Source: a virus. Taken from it: a DNA stretch of 51,710 nt. Below are positions 10,791-13,722 of this stretch, piece after piece. The DNA lies in the IMG/VR virus record IMGVR_UViG_3300006844_000014, positions 1 through 51,710 of that record; one strand, given 5' to 3'. Position 1 is the first letter of the stretch. The number at the start of each line of letters is the position of its first letter. Made by a program: the position numbers and the translations under genes. The notes below the pieces were generated by a model. It was not told where the DNA came from, did not search any database, and saw nothing but the letters and a program-made list of their open reading frames with translations.

Positions 10791-11222
10791 TCACGCCGGC
10801 GAGCGCACCTGGGTAGGTTCAGGACCGTCGGGGTCCACCTCCCGCAGGCTGCGCCAGCCGCCCGGCTCGATGACCTCCGCGAGACGCTCACCCACGCGGA
10901 AGATCAGTGCGCCGCTGGCGCTGAACTCGACGCTCTCCGCGTCGACAGTCTGGGTGAACCCGGACCACGTGGTACACGTGAACCGGCGCATCACCACACC
11001 GTCGCCGTGGCGCGGGCAGCGCGGGTCGTGACCCCGGCCGCTCACCGAGGCCGCGCAGCACGGCGCGAAGAACCCGGTGCTGGGCTCGTGGAACGAGTTC
11101 CAGCACGGGTAGAGCTCGCCGTCCTCGGCCCGGCTGGCCGGGTGGAGGTTGGGTGCGGGCGACCCGCACGTGGTGCACTTCGGCGACGGCCCGTTCACGA
11201 CCACCACACTGTGCTCACTCAC
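10791..11222 (-). CDS. Cys-rich hypothetical protein downstream of TROVE gene
   Basis: 143 residues. The N-terminal half carries a CTTC knuckle, PCWNSFHEP, APCC and RCPRHGDG, suggesting one or two zinc sites. The C-terminal half looks like a compact beta domain (VEFSASGALIFRVGERLAEVI). GTG at 11,222 overlaps the TGA of the TROVE gene by four bases, so it is co-translated with Ro60 and is a candidate partner of it. No family recognised. Confidence 0.65.
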   Translation of the reverse strand: MSEHSVVVVNGPSPKCTTCGSPAPNLHPASRAEDGELYPCWNSFHEPSTGFFAPCCAASVSGRGHDPRCPRHGDGVVMRRFTCTTWSGFTQTVDAESVEFSASGALIFRVGERLAEVIEPGGWRSLREVDPDGPEPTQVRSPA

Positions 11223-12925
11223 GCGGTTGCCTCCGTCGTCGCCGTCGTCGCCACCGTCATCGCGGCGGCGAGTGGGGACATCTCCCACGGCCAGACGCCA
11301 CTCCGTCCCGACTCGAGCAGCGGGATCAGACCGAACATCCGGTCCGTCAGCCCGCCGAACGTGTGCCGGTACGTCGTGCCCGCCGGCGCGTGTCCGCGGG
11401 CGTAGCCGGCCAGGTTCCACGTGTACAGCGGAACCCGCTCCGGGACGCACGCGCCAACGTCGAGCGAGTCGACGCCGGCCTGCTCGTCCGTCAGGATCAC
11501 GACGCGTGCGTGGCCGGAGTACGTCATGCGCACCGCGGCCGCGGTCGCCGTTCCTCCGCCGAGGAAGAAGCCGTCACGCTTCCAGCGCGCGATCGCGCCG
11601 AGCAGCGACTCCGCCCCGACCGCGGGGAACTGGCGCGCGTTTCCGGCGTGCCGGTCGCCGTAGTGGCGAGCGGTCGACGAGAACGTGTACACGTCCGCGC
11701 TCTTCGCGCGGGCCGCCAGCGCCAGGCCGAATGCCACGGCGGCGTCCCAGCGCAGCAGTGACGAGCGCTCCGACAGCGGGTCGTGCATCGAGCTGGACGT
11801 GTCGACCAGCACCAGTGTGCGGCCGTCCAGCGCCGGGACGCTGCCCAGGCTGTGCTGCAGGGCGACCTCGAGCGCGTGCCCCCAGCGCAGGCTGGGTGCC
11901 TCGCGGTGGGCCGCCAGGAAGCGCAGCGGCATCTCCCGCGAGCGCAGCACCTGCTCCGGGTCGCGCAGCCGCGCGACCGCGCGCTCCGCGACGTCGTCGG
12001 GCACTCCGGCCTCGTCCAGGTTGCGCAGGTTCCGCAGCAGGGCAGTGTAGCCCATCACGGGAACCAGCGCGGACCACAGGTCGCGCTTCGGCACCCGGTC
12101 GCCGGCCAGCGACAGGACGTCCTCCCACGTCATCGCCGCGGCGTGCAGCAGGTTCGTGTCGAGCAGCGCCGCCGGGTCCTCGGCGGCGCGCAGCCGCAGC
12201 TGCCGGTTCGCCTCGACCACGTGCAGGCCCTCCGGCACGTCCTGGCGGCCGCGCCGGCGGTCCAGCGCGAACCGGAACAGCCGGTCCTGCCAGTCCGACG
12301 ACGGGTACGGGTGCACCAGCTCGATGACGTCACCGAACCGGAACCCGTGGCTGGGTGTGTCGTACTTGAGCAGCCCGCGCTGGGTGTACAGCCGCCGGAC
12401 CGCGTCGCCGATCCCGCGCTTGACGGGCATCGGGACCGCGCGGCCGTGGCGCTCGATCCAGTAGGCCAGCGCCTCACCCGGCTCGTCGGCCCGGTCGAGC
12501 GCGACGTCGACGATCGCGCGCAGGACGCCGCGCCCGTCGGGCATCACGCGCGTGCGCGGGCCGCCGGTCTCGTGGGTGGCTGGCGCGCTCGCCAGGACGG
12601 CGGCCACGGTCTCCAGCGCCGTCACCAGCGCGACGGAGCGCAGGCCGGCGCCGGTGCGCAGCCAGCCGGTCAGGTGCAGGAGCCACTCGGGATCCTCGAC
12701 GGCGACCGCGGCGACCAGCGCGCGGTAGCGGCTGTCCCGGTCCAGCGCCTGCTCGTAGAAGGTCTTCTCGGAGACCATGTTGGTCACAGCGAGTGTGAAC
12801 AGCTCGCTCTTCGCGTCCCGGGAGAACCCGGGACCACCCTGGTGCGTCGGCCCGGACGACGCCGGCTCGGTCGTGACCGGACTGGTCGTCGCGGCGCGGA
12901 CGCCGGGTGTGTTGAACTTGGACAT
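11219..12925 (-). CDS. rsr: TROVE-domain Ro60-like RNA-binding protein
   Basis: 568 residues, normal length for Ro60/Rsr. The N-terminal part reads like the TROVE HEAT-repeat ring: FTLAVTNMVSEKTFYE, DPEWLLHLTGWLRT, LRSVALVTALE, YWIERHGRAVPMPVKRGIGDAV, LRNLRNLDEAGVP. The C-terminal part is a vWA-like domain with an intact MIDAS motif DTSSSM (about residue 375) and VVILTDEQAG. Ro proteins bind Y RNAs on the outer ring and damaged or misfolded RNA in the central hole; in bacteria Rsr works with PNPase. ATG at 12,925 lies nine bases from AAGGG, which sits in a stem (12,929-12,967). The four RNA folds immediately upstream are its probable ligands. Homologues are known in some actinophages. Confidence 0.9.
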   Translation of the reverse strand: MSKFNTPGVRAATTSPVTTEPASSGPTHQGGPGFSRDAKSELFTLAVTNMVSEKTFYEQALDRDSRYRALVAAVAVEDPEWLLHLTGWLRTGAGLRSVALVTALETVAAVLASAPATHETGGPRTRVMPDGRGVLRAIVDVALDRADEPGEALAYWIERHGRAVPMPVKRGIGDAVRRLYTQRGLLKYDTPSHGFRFGDVIELVHPYPSSDWQDRLFRFALDRRRGRQDVPEGLHVVEANRQLRLRAAEDPAALLDTNLLHAAAMTWEDVLSLAGDRVPKRDLWSALVPVMGYTALLRNLRNLDEAGVPDDVAERAVARLRDPEQVLRSREMPLRFLAAHREAPSLRWGHALEVALQHSLGSVPALDGRTLVLVDTSSSMHDPLSERSSLLRWDAAVAFGLALAARAKSADVYTFSSTARHYGDRHAGNARQFPAVGAESLLGAIARWKRDGFFLGGGTATAAAVRMTYSGHARVVILTDEQAGVDSLDVGACVPERVPLYTWNLAGYARGHAPAGTTYRHTFGGLTDRMFGLIPLLESGRSGVWPWEMSPLAAAMTVATTATTEATA

Positions 12926-12928
12926 GAG

Positions 12929-12967
12929 GTGCGGCCCTTCCCTTCGGTGGTGTGGGGAGGGCCGCAC
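12929..12967 (-). promoter_or_regulatory. Leader hairpin covering the TROVE ribosome-binding site
   Basis: Perfect 10 bp inverted repeat (12,929-12,938 and 12,958-12,967). On the minus strand its 3' arm ends three bases before the ATG at 12,925 and contains part of the AAGGGAAGGG Shine-Dalgarno. When folded it should limit translation, so structure or Ro binding could regulate the gene. Confidence 0.6.
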
Positions 12968-12979
12968 GTGGTGCGTGGA

Positions 12980-13065
12980 GGTGCCCGGGAACGGGTGAGG
13001 GCGGATTTCGGGCTTCGCCTCGATTTGGCAATCGATGAAGTAACCGCACTCGCGCAGCGGGCACC
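12980..13065 (-). ncRNA. Y RNA-like ncRNA, unit 4 of 4
   Basis: 86 bases closed by a perfect 8 bp stem (GGTGCCCG with CGGGCACC). Inside the 5' arm is CTGCG and inside the 3' arm ACCCGTTCC, both shared with other units. An inner GCGG/CCGC helix follows, then TTACTTC, a 6 bp hairpin TCGATT-GCCA-AATCGA and a three-pair GGC-GAA-GCC hairpin. Ends about 55 bases before the TROVE start. Ro binding is inferred. Confidence 0.65.
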
Positions 13066-13078
13066 GCCGCGATGTGGG

Positions 13079-13151
13079 GCCCCCCGGGAACCGGTGTGCG
13101 ACGGGGATTTTCACCCTAAGAAGTACCCGTCACCACTTCGCAGCGGGGAGC
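13079..13151 (-). ncRNA. Y RNA-like ncRNA, unit 3 of 4 (minimal form)
   Basis: 73 bases closed by GCTCCCCG paired with CGGGGGGC (8 bp, one G-U). CTGCG follows on the 5' side and ACCGGTTCC precedes the closing arm on the 3' side. Inner helix GACGGG/CCCGTC (6 bp) leads to a 20-base apical loop beginning TACTTC. It has no tRNA-like arms, so it may contain only the protein-binding module. Confidence 0.65.
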
Positions 13152-13167
13152 TGCGTCTGCAGTTGTG

Positions 13168-13275
13168 CCCACCCGTGAACAAGCGGTCCGGGGAATGCCG
13201 CCAGCGGCACGTCCCCGTGTGGGGGGACGCTCGGAGTCGAACCAAGAAGTAACCCGGTCCTGCGCAGCGGGTGGG
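13168..13275 (-). ncRNA. Y RNA-like ncRNA with tRNA-like module, unit 2 of 4
   Basis: 108 bases closed by CCCACCCG/CGGGTGGG (8 bp). After CTGCG and an inner CCGGG/CCCGG helix comes a T-arm: CTTGG-TTCGACT-CCGAG (13,230-13,246), with the canonical TTCRANY loop. It is followed by a 7 bp CGTCCCC/GGGGACG stem closed by six bases, then T-G and a short hairpin CCG-CTGG-CGG with GG in its loop. The order T-arm, closed acceptor stem, D-arm is the permuted tRNA layout reported for bacterial YrlA Y RNAs. Not a functional tRNA: there is no anticodon arm and no free acceptor end. Confidence 0.75.
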
Positions 13276-13296
13276 AAAGCTCTGGAGTTGTGTGCC

Positions 13297-13417
13297 GGTG
13301 GCGGGCACCGGTTGGTCCGGGACTGCCGGGTCCGCGAGGAACCCGGTGCCGGGGGTTTCACGTCCCAGCCGTACCCTTGCGATGGTTGAAGTATCCCGAT
13401 CCGTTCGCAGCGCCACC
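13297..13417 (-). ncRNA. Y RNA-like ncRNA, unit 1 of 4
   Basis: 121 bases closed by GGTGGCG/CGCCACC (7 bp). CTGCG follows and ACCGGTGCC precedes the closing arm, matching the other units. Inner helix TCGGGA/TCCCGG, then TACTTC and two more stems (GCTGGG with CCCGGC, allowing one G-U; CCGGGT/ACCCGG extended past a bulge). Its 5' end is about ten bases from the -10 box at 13,428-13,437, so it is likely the first transcribed unit. Confidence 0.65.
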
Positions 13418-13425
13418 TGCGAGGA

Positions 13426-13722
13426 CTACTCTACCAGGTCTAGGTGATCAATGTTCGTGAGTTTGTCGCGAGCATCCCCGCCACCCGCGACGTGCAGCCG
13501 GATCGTCTCCCCGGTGACGTACCCGAGCCGGCGTCGCAGCTCCGCTACGTCGCGCTCGACGTCCCCGGCGCGGGAGACCAGCAGCGCGCGGGTTCGCCCG
13601 TGCGGGCAGTCGGCCCAGGCGACGAGGGGTTCCTCGGCGCCGGCGCGCCGCCGGCGGTGGTCGCGGCCGTCGCGTGCCCGGGCGTTGAAGATCTTGGGTC
13701 GTCCGACGTCGGCGAGGTTCAC
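13426..13722 (-). CDS. Hypothetical protein, 98 aa
   Basis: Not recognised. Basic N-terminal half (KIFNARARDGRDHRRRRAG), a CPHGRTRALLVSRAGD segment and an amphipathic helix (DVERDVAELRRRLGYV). GTG at 13,722 has AAGGGA eight bases upstream and overlaps the upstream stop. Its 3' end contains the promoter of the Y RNA-like array. Confidence 0.65.
   Translation of the reverse strand: MNLADVGRPKIFNARARDGRDHRRRRAGAEEPLVAWADCPHGRTRALLVSRAGDVERDVAELRRRLGYVTGETIRLHVAGGGDARDKLTNIDHLDLVE
13428..13437 (-). promoter_or_regulatory. Extended -10 promoter for the ncRNA array (CTGGTAGAGT)
   Basis: Minus-strand TG-G-TAGAGT overlaps the last codons of the gene at 13,426-13,722. A start about seven bases on would be near 13,421, four bases from the closing stem of unit 1. 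The identical ten bases occur on the plus strand at 44,689. Confidence 0.65.

Follow-up and report, generated by a model that had tools for sequence, protein, structure and literature searches.

A Ro60/Rsr gene preceded by a tandem array of four Y RNA-like units in a phage record from IMG/VR

The Ro gene and the units in front of it

The DNA analysed here, which we call the window, comprises 51,710 bases at 68.6% G+C from the IMG/VR virus record IMGVR_UViG_3300006844_000014, and its phage genes include those for a family A DNA polymerase, a SNF2-type helicase, a D5-type primase and a Sak4-like protein. On its minus strand, where all features described below lie, positions 11,219–12,925 (ATG at 12,925) encode a 568-residue Ro60/Rsr homologue with TROVE and vWA domains. 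The product scores 54.9 bits against Pfam TROVE (PF05731; cut-off 23; E 1.2e-14) and is assigned to PHROG 850 (8e-38), while a profile of its family recovers from the PDB the TROVE proteins 9kop/9l5y, Rsr (2nvo) and Ro60 (1yvp), the last two at E 1e-13. The vWA MIDAS motif, DxSxS, is intact (D375, S377 and S379) and invariant in 48 sequences; with both TROVE and MIDAS present, the sequence identifies the gene as a real TROVE/Ro60 homologue. Phages of Gordonia, Arthrobacter and Streptomyces encode relatives that share ~35–44% identity with it and bear the annotation Ro-like RNA binding protein; the highest identities are 60% in IMG/VR and 57% in Glycomyces. A nucleotide search of the window against phage records gave no match, Pfam searches of ten neighbouring open reading frames returned two sub-threshold matches and nothing else, ARAGORN found no tRNA in the window, and no RtcB or PNPase-type gene was found in this record, which may be a fragment.

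Directly before the Ro gene, and codirectional with it, lie four Y RNA-like units: unit 1 (13,297–13,417; 121 nt), with a large apical module, no clear T-arm and a 7-bp closing stem, GGTGGCG/CGCCACC; unit 2 (13,168–13,275; 108 nt), which is tRNA-like and closed by an 8-bp stem; unit 3 (13,079–13,151; 73 nt), a short form whose 8-bp stem includes one G-U pair; and unit 4 (12,980–13,065; 86 nt), again with an 8-bp stem. A sequence-only reading of this DNA had described four such units, closed by stems of 7–8 bp, separated by gaps of 13–21 nt, and sharing CTGCG just after the 5′ arm and TACTTC after the inner helix; sequence and folds bear this out, with the units on the Ro-gene strand only and spacers of 21, 16 and 13 nt, and the 3′ strands that it quoted are exact. 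As far as sequence and folding tell, the units differ in their apical modules only.

A loose stem-plus-CTTC descriptor, which gave 501 upstream matches against 200 in coding controls, was of no use, and we relied instead on a strict descriptor and on covariance models. The strict descriptor (a stem of at least 7 bp, CTGCG, TACTTC and the partner arm) matched the window four times on the Ro strand and not once on the other, against a chance expectation of 0.015 units per window on both strands, estimated from 200 dinucleotide-preserving shuffles.

Arrays and transcription signals in related phages and bacteria

A covariance model built from 41 aligned short units of relatives, and holding no window sequence (R1), was searched over both strands of the whole 51.7 kb. 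Its three best matches were unit 3 (48.2 bits, E 1.1e-8), unit 4 (33.1 bits, E 2.7e-5) and unit 2, which scored 23.8 bits (E 0.003) when filters were off and 38.4 bits (5e-6) under default filters, the next match lying at E 0.15; unit 1 was not found in this whole-window search. With window units 2–4 added, the model (R2) placed both ends of unit 1 exactly, at a score of 17.2 bits (E 0.0015 over 575 bases, or ~0.1 for the whole window). Models thus lend unit 1 weak support, yet it fits the common design: we accept it for its stem in the same register, its CTGCG, TACTTC and 3′ loop ACCGGTGCC, and its place after a −10-like element, as in the first units of relatives.

The closing stems had also been said to covary within the array. 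Four units by themselves are few for such a claim, but the stem covaries strongly among relatives: there, 8 of 11 pairs of the stem have changed on both sides, and the covariation score is 0.43 against 0.11 in shuffles, with the caveat that the seed set was picked for having the stem, so that the percentage paired is biased. The units carry the marks of bacterial Y RNAs in the broad sense: a place beside and codirectional with Ro, and a covarying terminal stem with a conserved core. The proposal that Y RNA-like RNAs adjoin a phage Ro gene is well supported.

The relatives were drawn from 80 viral and 80 bacterial Ro loci together with several annotated phages, 155 distinct loci being searched. 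R1 gave 330 matches at E ≤0.1 in 149 of these, every one on the strand of Ro, with 327 of them upstream of it. In the related viral contigs, two or more units precede Ro in at least 61 of 75 and three or more in at least 26; in the actinobacterial loci, the corresponding counts are at least 54 of 80 and at least 27. These counts are lower bounds because R1 misses some long units. By eye, we count four units in VanLee, five in pSt2308, four in BRock and three in each of the IMG/VR contigs L002–L005. Short units without a T-arm have the common core and covary. By these sequence comparisons, tandem Y RNA arrays with mixed modules before Ro are general in actinobacteria and their phages, and the array is therefore not peculiar to the phage of the window. 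A phage Ro protein serving four RNA ligands with different apical modules had been put forward as not seen described before; this claim to novelty is weaker, since Y RNAs of phages and mycobacteriophages are already cited from earlier work (PMC12282133, PMC7765460) and arrays of two to five units are usual. The window array is a new member of the known Y RNA–Ro loci. Chen et al. (2014) reportedly list phages with Y RNAs.

Some loci depart from this arrangement. Streptomyces phage Kela has an RNA ligase gene immediately ahead of Ro, in the usual place of the array (L010:2229-2981), with one weak Y-like match farther upstream; in phage Atuin, YrlA-like and Y-like matches lie downstream of Ro amid tRNA genes (L007:5094-5152 and L007:4748-4820); and in Virgisporangium ochraceum, perhaps within a prophage, a tRNA cluster is continuous with the Y RNA array upstream of Ro (L138:1604-2135).

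Several signals bear on how the array might be transcribed. A −10-like TAGAGT (13,428–13,433), which the sequence-only reading had missed, lies 10 nt before unit 1 and is the probable array promoter; among relatives, TANNNT occurs within 36 nt upstream of 114 of 181 first units, as against 3 of 144 inner units and a background of 4.5%. Scans of the array region of the window found no sigma-70 promoter, there being no −35 match, and no U-run terminator. The spacer between units 1 and 2, GGCACACAACTCCAGAGCTTT (13,276–13,296), contains CACAACTNCAGA, a motif that recurs in the spacer between units 2 and 3, CACAACTGCAGACGCA (13,152–13,167), and that is possibly a processing site. ACAACTTCAGA-like motifs, present in two of the three window spacers, are frequent in the inner spacers of relatives, where ACAACT lies upstream of 45 of 138 inner units. 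CACAACTNCAGA itself is conserved between Y RNA units (L012–L170) and is also seen before some first units. Finally, a 10-bp GC-rich hairpin, GTGCGGCCCT/AGGGCCGCAC (12,929–12,967), separates the array from the start codon of Ro and is a candidate attenuator or RBS-occluding element; a T-run follows the corresponding hairpin in 18 of 101 relatives and in 2 shuffled sequences, and the window hairpin has none. A −10 confined to the first unit, conserved spacers and the hairpin ahead of Ro together give each array the look of a single transcription unit.

The same region could be taken for a cis-acting leader that regulates transcription or translation of ro and yields no free Y RNAs. In relatives, a median of just 73 nt separates the last unit from ro, a hairpin stands ahead of the start codon in 86 of 101 of them as against 30 of 101 shuffled sequences, and autoregulation by Ro would be natural; yet such a leader would not need as many as two to five near-complete repeats that each have a closing stem and that carry varied modules, whole tRNA mimics among them, some relatives have terminator-like signals between array and ro, and in the bacteria studied Y RNAs encoded adjacent to ro exist as free RNAs (PMC7790460). 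We consider a leader of this exclusive kind improbable, while noting that a leader role and free Y RNAs are compatible.

tRNA-like modules and a proposed anticodon arm

The apical module of unit 2 contains a T-arm that the sequence-only reading had not recorded, CTTGG-TTCGACT-CCGAG (13,230–13,246), directly after UACUUC and with a 7-nt loop that fits the T-loop consensus TTCRANY. In the predicted fold, it is followed by an acceptor-like hairpin, CGTCCCCCCACACGGGGACG (13,210–13,229), which has the same place and form in the pSt2308 unit (L008_1t), and by a short hairpin, TGCCGCTGGCGGCA (13,196–13,209), which occupies the place of the D-arm and is not a canonical one. This design matches that of unit 1 of Streptomyces phage pSt2308 (L008:2308-2416). 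Unit 3 has a minimal anticodon-like hairpin, TTC-TTAGGGT-GAA (13,110–13,122), with Y32, U33 and R37 assigned on the pattern of relatives. A clear T-arm is confined to unit 2 and the minimal hairpin to unit 3; the permuted T-arm/acceptor/D-arm domain was not found in units 1, 3 and 4, and the apical folds of units 1 and 4 are of other kinds.

Among relatives, the T-arm motif occurs in 163 of the 330 R1 matches, and hairpins that start at the UUC of UACUUC most commonly have a loop of 7 nt. Of 90 unique 7-nt loops, 78 have U33 and 65 the full Y32-U33-R37 pattern, against 52 and 29, respectively, of 152 control hairpins selected in the same manner outside the units; in units with a T-arm, the distance from UUC to that arm peaks sharply at 21–22 nt, which corresponds to a stem of 5 bp, a loop of 7 nt and a variable loop of 4–5 nt such as AGGUC or UGGUU; and at a distance of 22 both pairs next to the loop covary (each paired in 35/41, compared with 18 and 20 after shuffling), all of these statistics coming from related, non-independent sequences and from shuffles that ignore kinship. 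ARAGORN, moreover, reads anticodons in the UACUUC hairpins of relatives. The commonest triplets upstream of Ro in L011–L170 are GTT, GCT and CTT.

In many actinobacterial and actinophage units, then, the UACUUC hairpin looks like a covarying anticodon arm. Loop pattern, spacing, covariation and the ARAGORN anticodons together suggest that many units of relatives would amount to a complete tRNA circularly permuted at 26/27, in the order anticodon arm, variable loop, T-arm, acceptor-like hairpin and D-arm, closed by the putative Ro-binding stem. This proposal draws mainly on relatives rather than on the window, whose reduced tRNA-like features mark it as a real but divergent member. The Rfam YrlA consensus does not include an anticodon arm, and a review of YrlA describes D, T and acceptor arms only (PMC8394870). 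As far as the accessible literature shows, the presence of a T-arm in about half of the units of relatives and of an apparent anticodon arm in many is new, though priority is not established and the design is at most a variant of a known one.

Four tRNA annotations immediately upstream of Ro overlap with Y RNA units: tRNA-Arg in VanLee (L006:2704-2775), tRNA-Ser in Alone3 (L171:2274-2347), tRNA-Arg in GiJojo (L172:2269-2343) and tRNA-Pro in Frankenweenie (L174:2245-2335). All four have a T-arm, and where a tRNA would have its D-arm they have the TACTTC core of Y RNAs, joined in all but L174 by the GATG core; from these features, they are probably misannotated.

These calls, by annotators and by ARAGORN, and the T-arms themselves might suggest that the units are degenerating phage tRNA genes or the remnants of a tRNA array, not Y RNAs. 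Such an origin seems very unlikely, given that a long stem closes the units around a domain of permuted order, that the window itself yields no ARAGORN tRNA, that short units devoid of a T-arm have the same core and covary, and that the place of the array before ro is kept across actinobacterial hosts and phages.

A probable phage-borne Ro RNP locus

Chance hairpins, which 68.6% GC would make easy to form, can be set aside with near certainty in view of four observed units where 0.015 are expected, the R1 E-values, the restriction to a single strand and the fixed position in relatives. The window very probably holds a phage-borne Ro RNP locus, in which a promoter-proximal array of four bacterial-type Y RNAs is followed by the Ro60/Rsr gene. 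This reading draws on the array directly before, and codirectional with, a bona fide Ro gene; on the ranking of units 3, 4 and 2 at the top by R1, the R1 matches before Ro in relatives and the stem covariation; and on the YrlA matches to units of relatives, the pSt2308-like T-arm, the array-level signals and the literature on Deinococcus, Salmonella and CKA15. Counting against it are the Rfam non-match, the weak unit 1, the divergent 3′ loop, the non-canonical D-arm of unit 2 and the lack of RtcB and PNPase genes. The four units are very probably the RNA partners of the Ro protein, the natural inference from their common stem and CTGCG/UACUUC core.

Among the closest known systems are the arrays before Ro in the actinophages VanLee, pSt2308, BRock and Atuin and in Streptomyces, Nocardiopsis, Glycomyces and other hosts, which share the core, position and direction of the window array and have two to five mixed units. 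Their usual GGTGCG and GATCTC are replaced in the window by GCTGCG and, in the 3′ loop, GGTTCC; the window loop ACCGGTTCC thus diverges from their GATCTC, and its tRNA-like domain is reduced. T-arm units of relatives match Rfam YrlA exactly on the units, with E down to 1e-7 and below the gathering score (RF02553, 69 bits; relatives ≤48 bits), whereas Rfam scans of the window and of the array alone found neither YrlA nor any other relevant family, even at E 10. Like the YrlA-type loci with Rsr, such as rsr-yrlBA-rtcBA of Salmonella, the window has more than one Ro-adjacent Y RNA with a terminal stem, and some YrlA-type Y RNAs share with units of relatives a permuted tRNA-like domain of T-arm, acceptor-like hairpin and D-arm; the window differs from the Salmonella locus in its four units before ro, the absence of rtcB from the record and the lack of an Rfam match. 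Deinococcus radiodurans RYPER likewise pairs a Ro orthologue with a Y RNA, which tethers Ro to an RNA machine; that bacterium is not known to have as many Y RNAs as the window or a row of different modules. In Listeria phage CKA15, an Rsr-like gene has highly transcribed small RNA regions within the 2 kb upstream of it and in the same direction, and the authors of that work suggest that they are Y RNAs (PMC12282133); that phage has a host of another phylum, and the comparison drawn here is one of position.

At such a Ro RNP locus, we infer that a single transcript most likely begins at TAGAGT, that cleavage within the spacers frees the individual Y RNAs (73–121 nt), and that the transcript continues past the hairpin into ro. 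Ro would grip each Y RNA by its closing stem and CTGCG/UACUUC core, leaving a different, exchangeable apical module on display in each, among them the compact tRNA-like module of unit 2 and the minimal anticodon-like hairpin of unit 3. By analogy with the Rsr–Y RNA–PNPase complex of Deinococcus and rsr-yrlBA-rtcBA of Salmonella (PMC7790460), these modules may tether Ro to other RNA-handling proteins or gate access to them. Because the record holds no PNPase or RtcB gene, the partners would be the host's, probably PNPase and tRNA-recognising enzymes, and an infecting phage might benefit by steering how structured RNA and tRNA are degraded or repaired.

A more speculative extension, to which we lend limited credence, is that arrays of actinobacteria and actinophages are tRNA mimics held by Ro and equipped with the UACUUC anticodon arm, such that the larger units would be whole tRNAs, circularly permuted and differing in anticodon triplet, and the short units would display just the anticodon-like hairpin; the phage set might then serve as Ro-protected decoys or baits for host anticodon-loop enzymes such as the anticodon nucleases of phage defence. 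YrlA is modified by the tRNA enzymes TruB and DusA (PMC8394870), and its tRNA-like domain has been suggested to inhibit an anticodon nuclease (PMC7790460). The decoy idea would extend that suggestion.

Bacterial Y RNAs are regarded as tethers and gates of Ro, and discussion has usually centred on one or two of them. With three to five different modules side by side in an array, in phage and host, one can ask which partner each module brings in. The anticodon arm of relatives, besides explaining several probably wrong tRNA annotations in phage genomes, would turn a vague tRNA mimic into a testable decoy that predicts which tRNA-acting enzymes bind.
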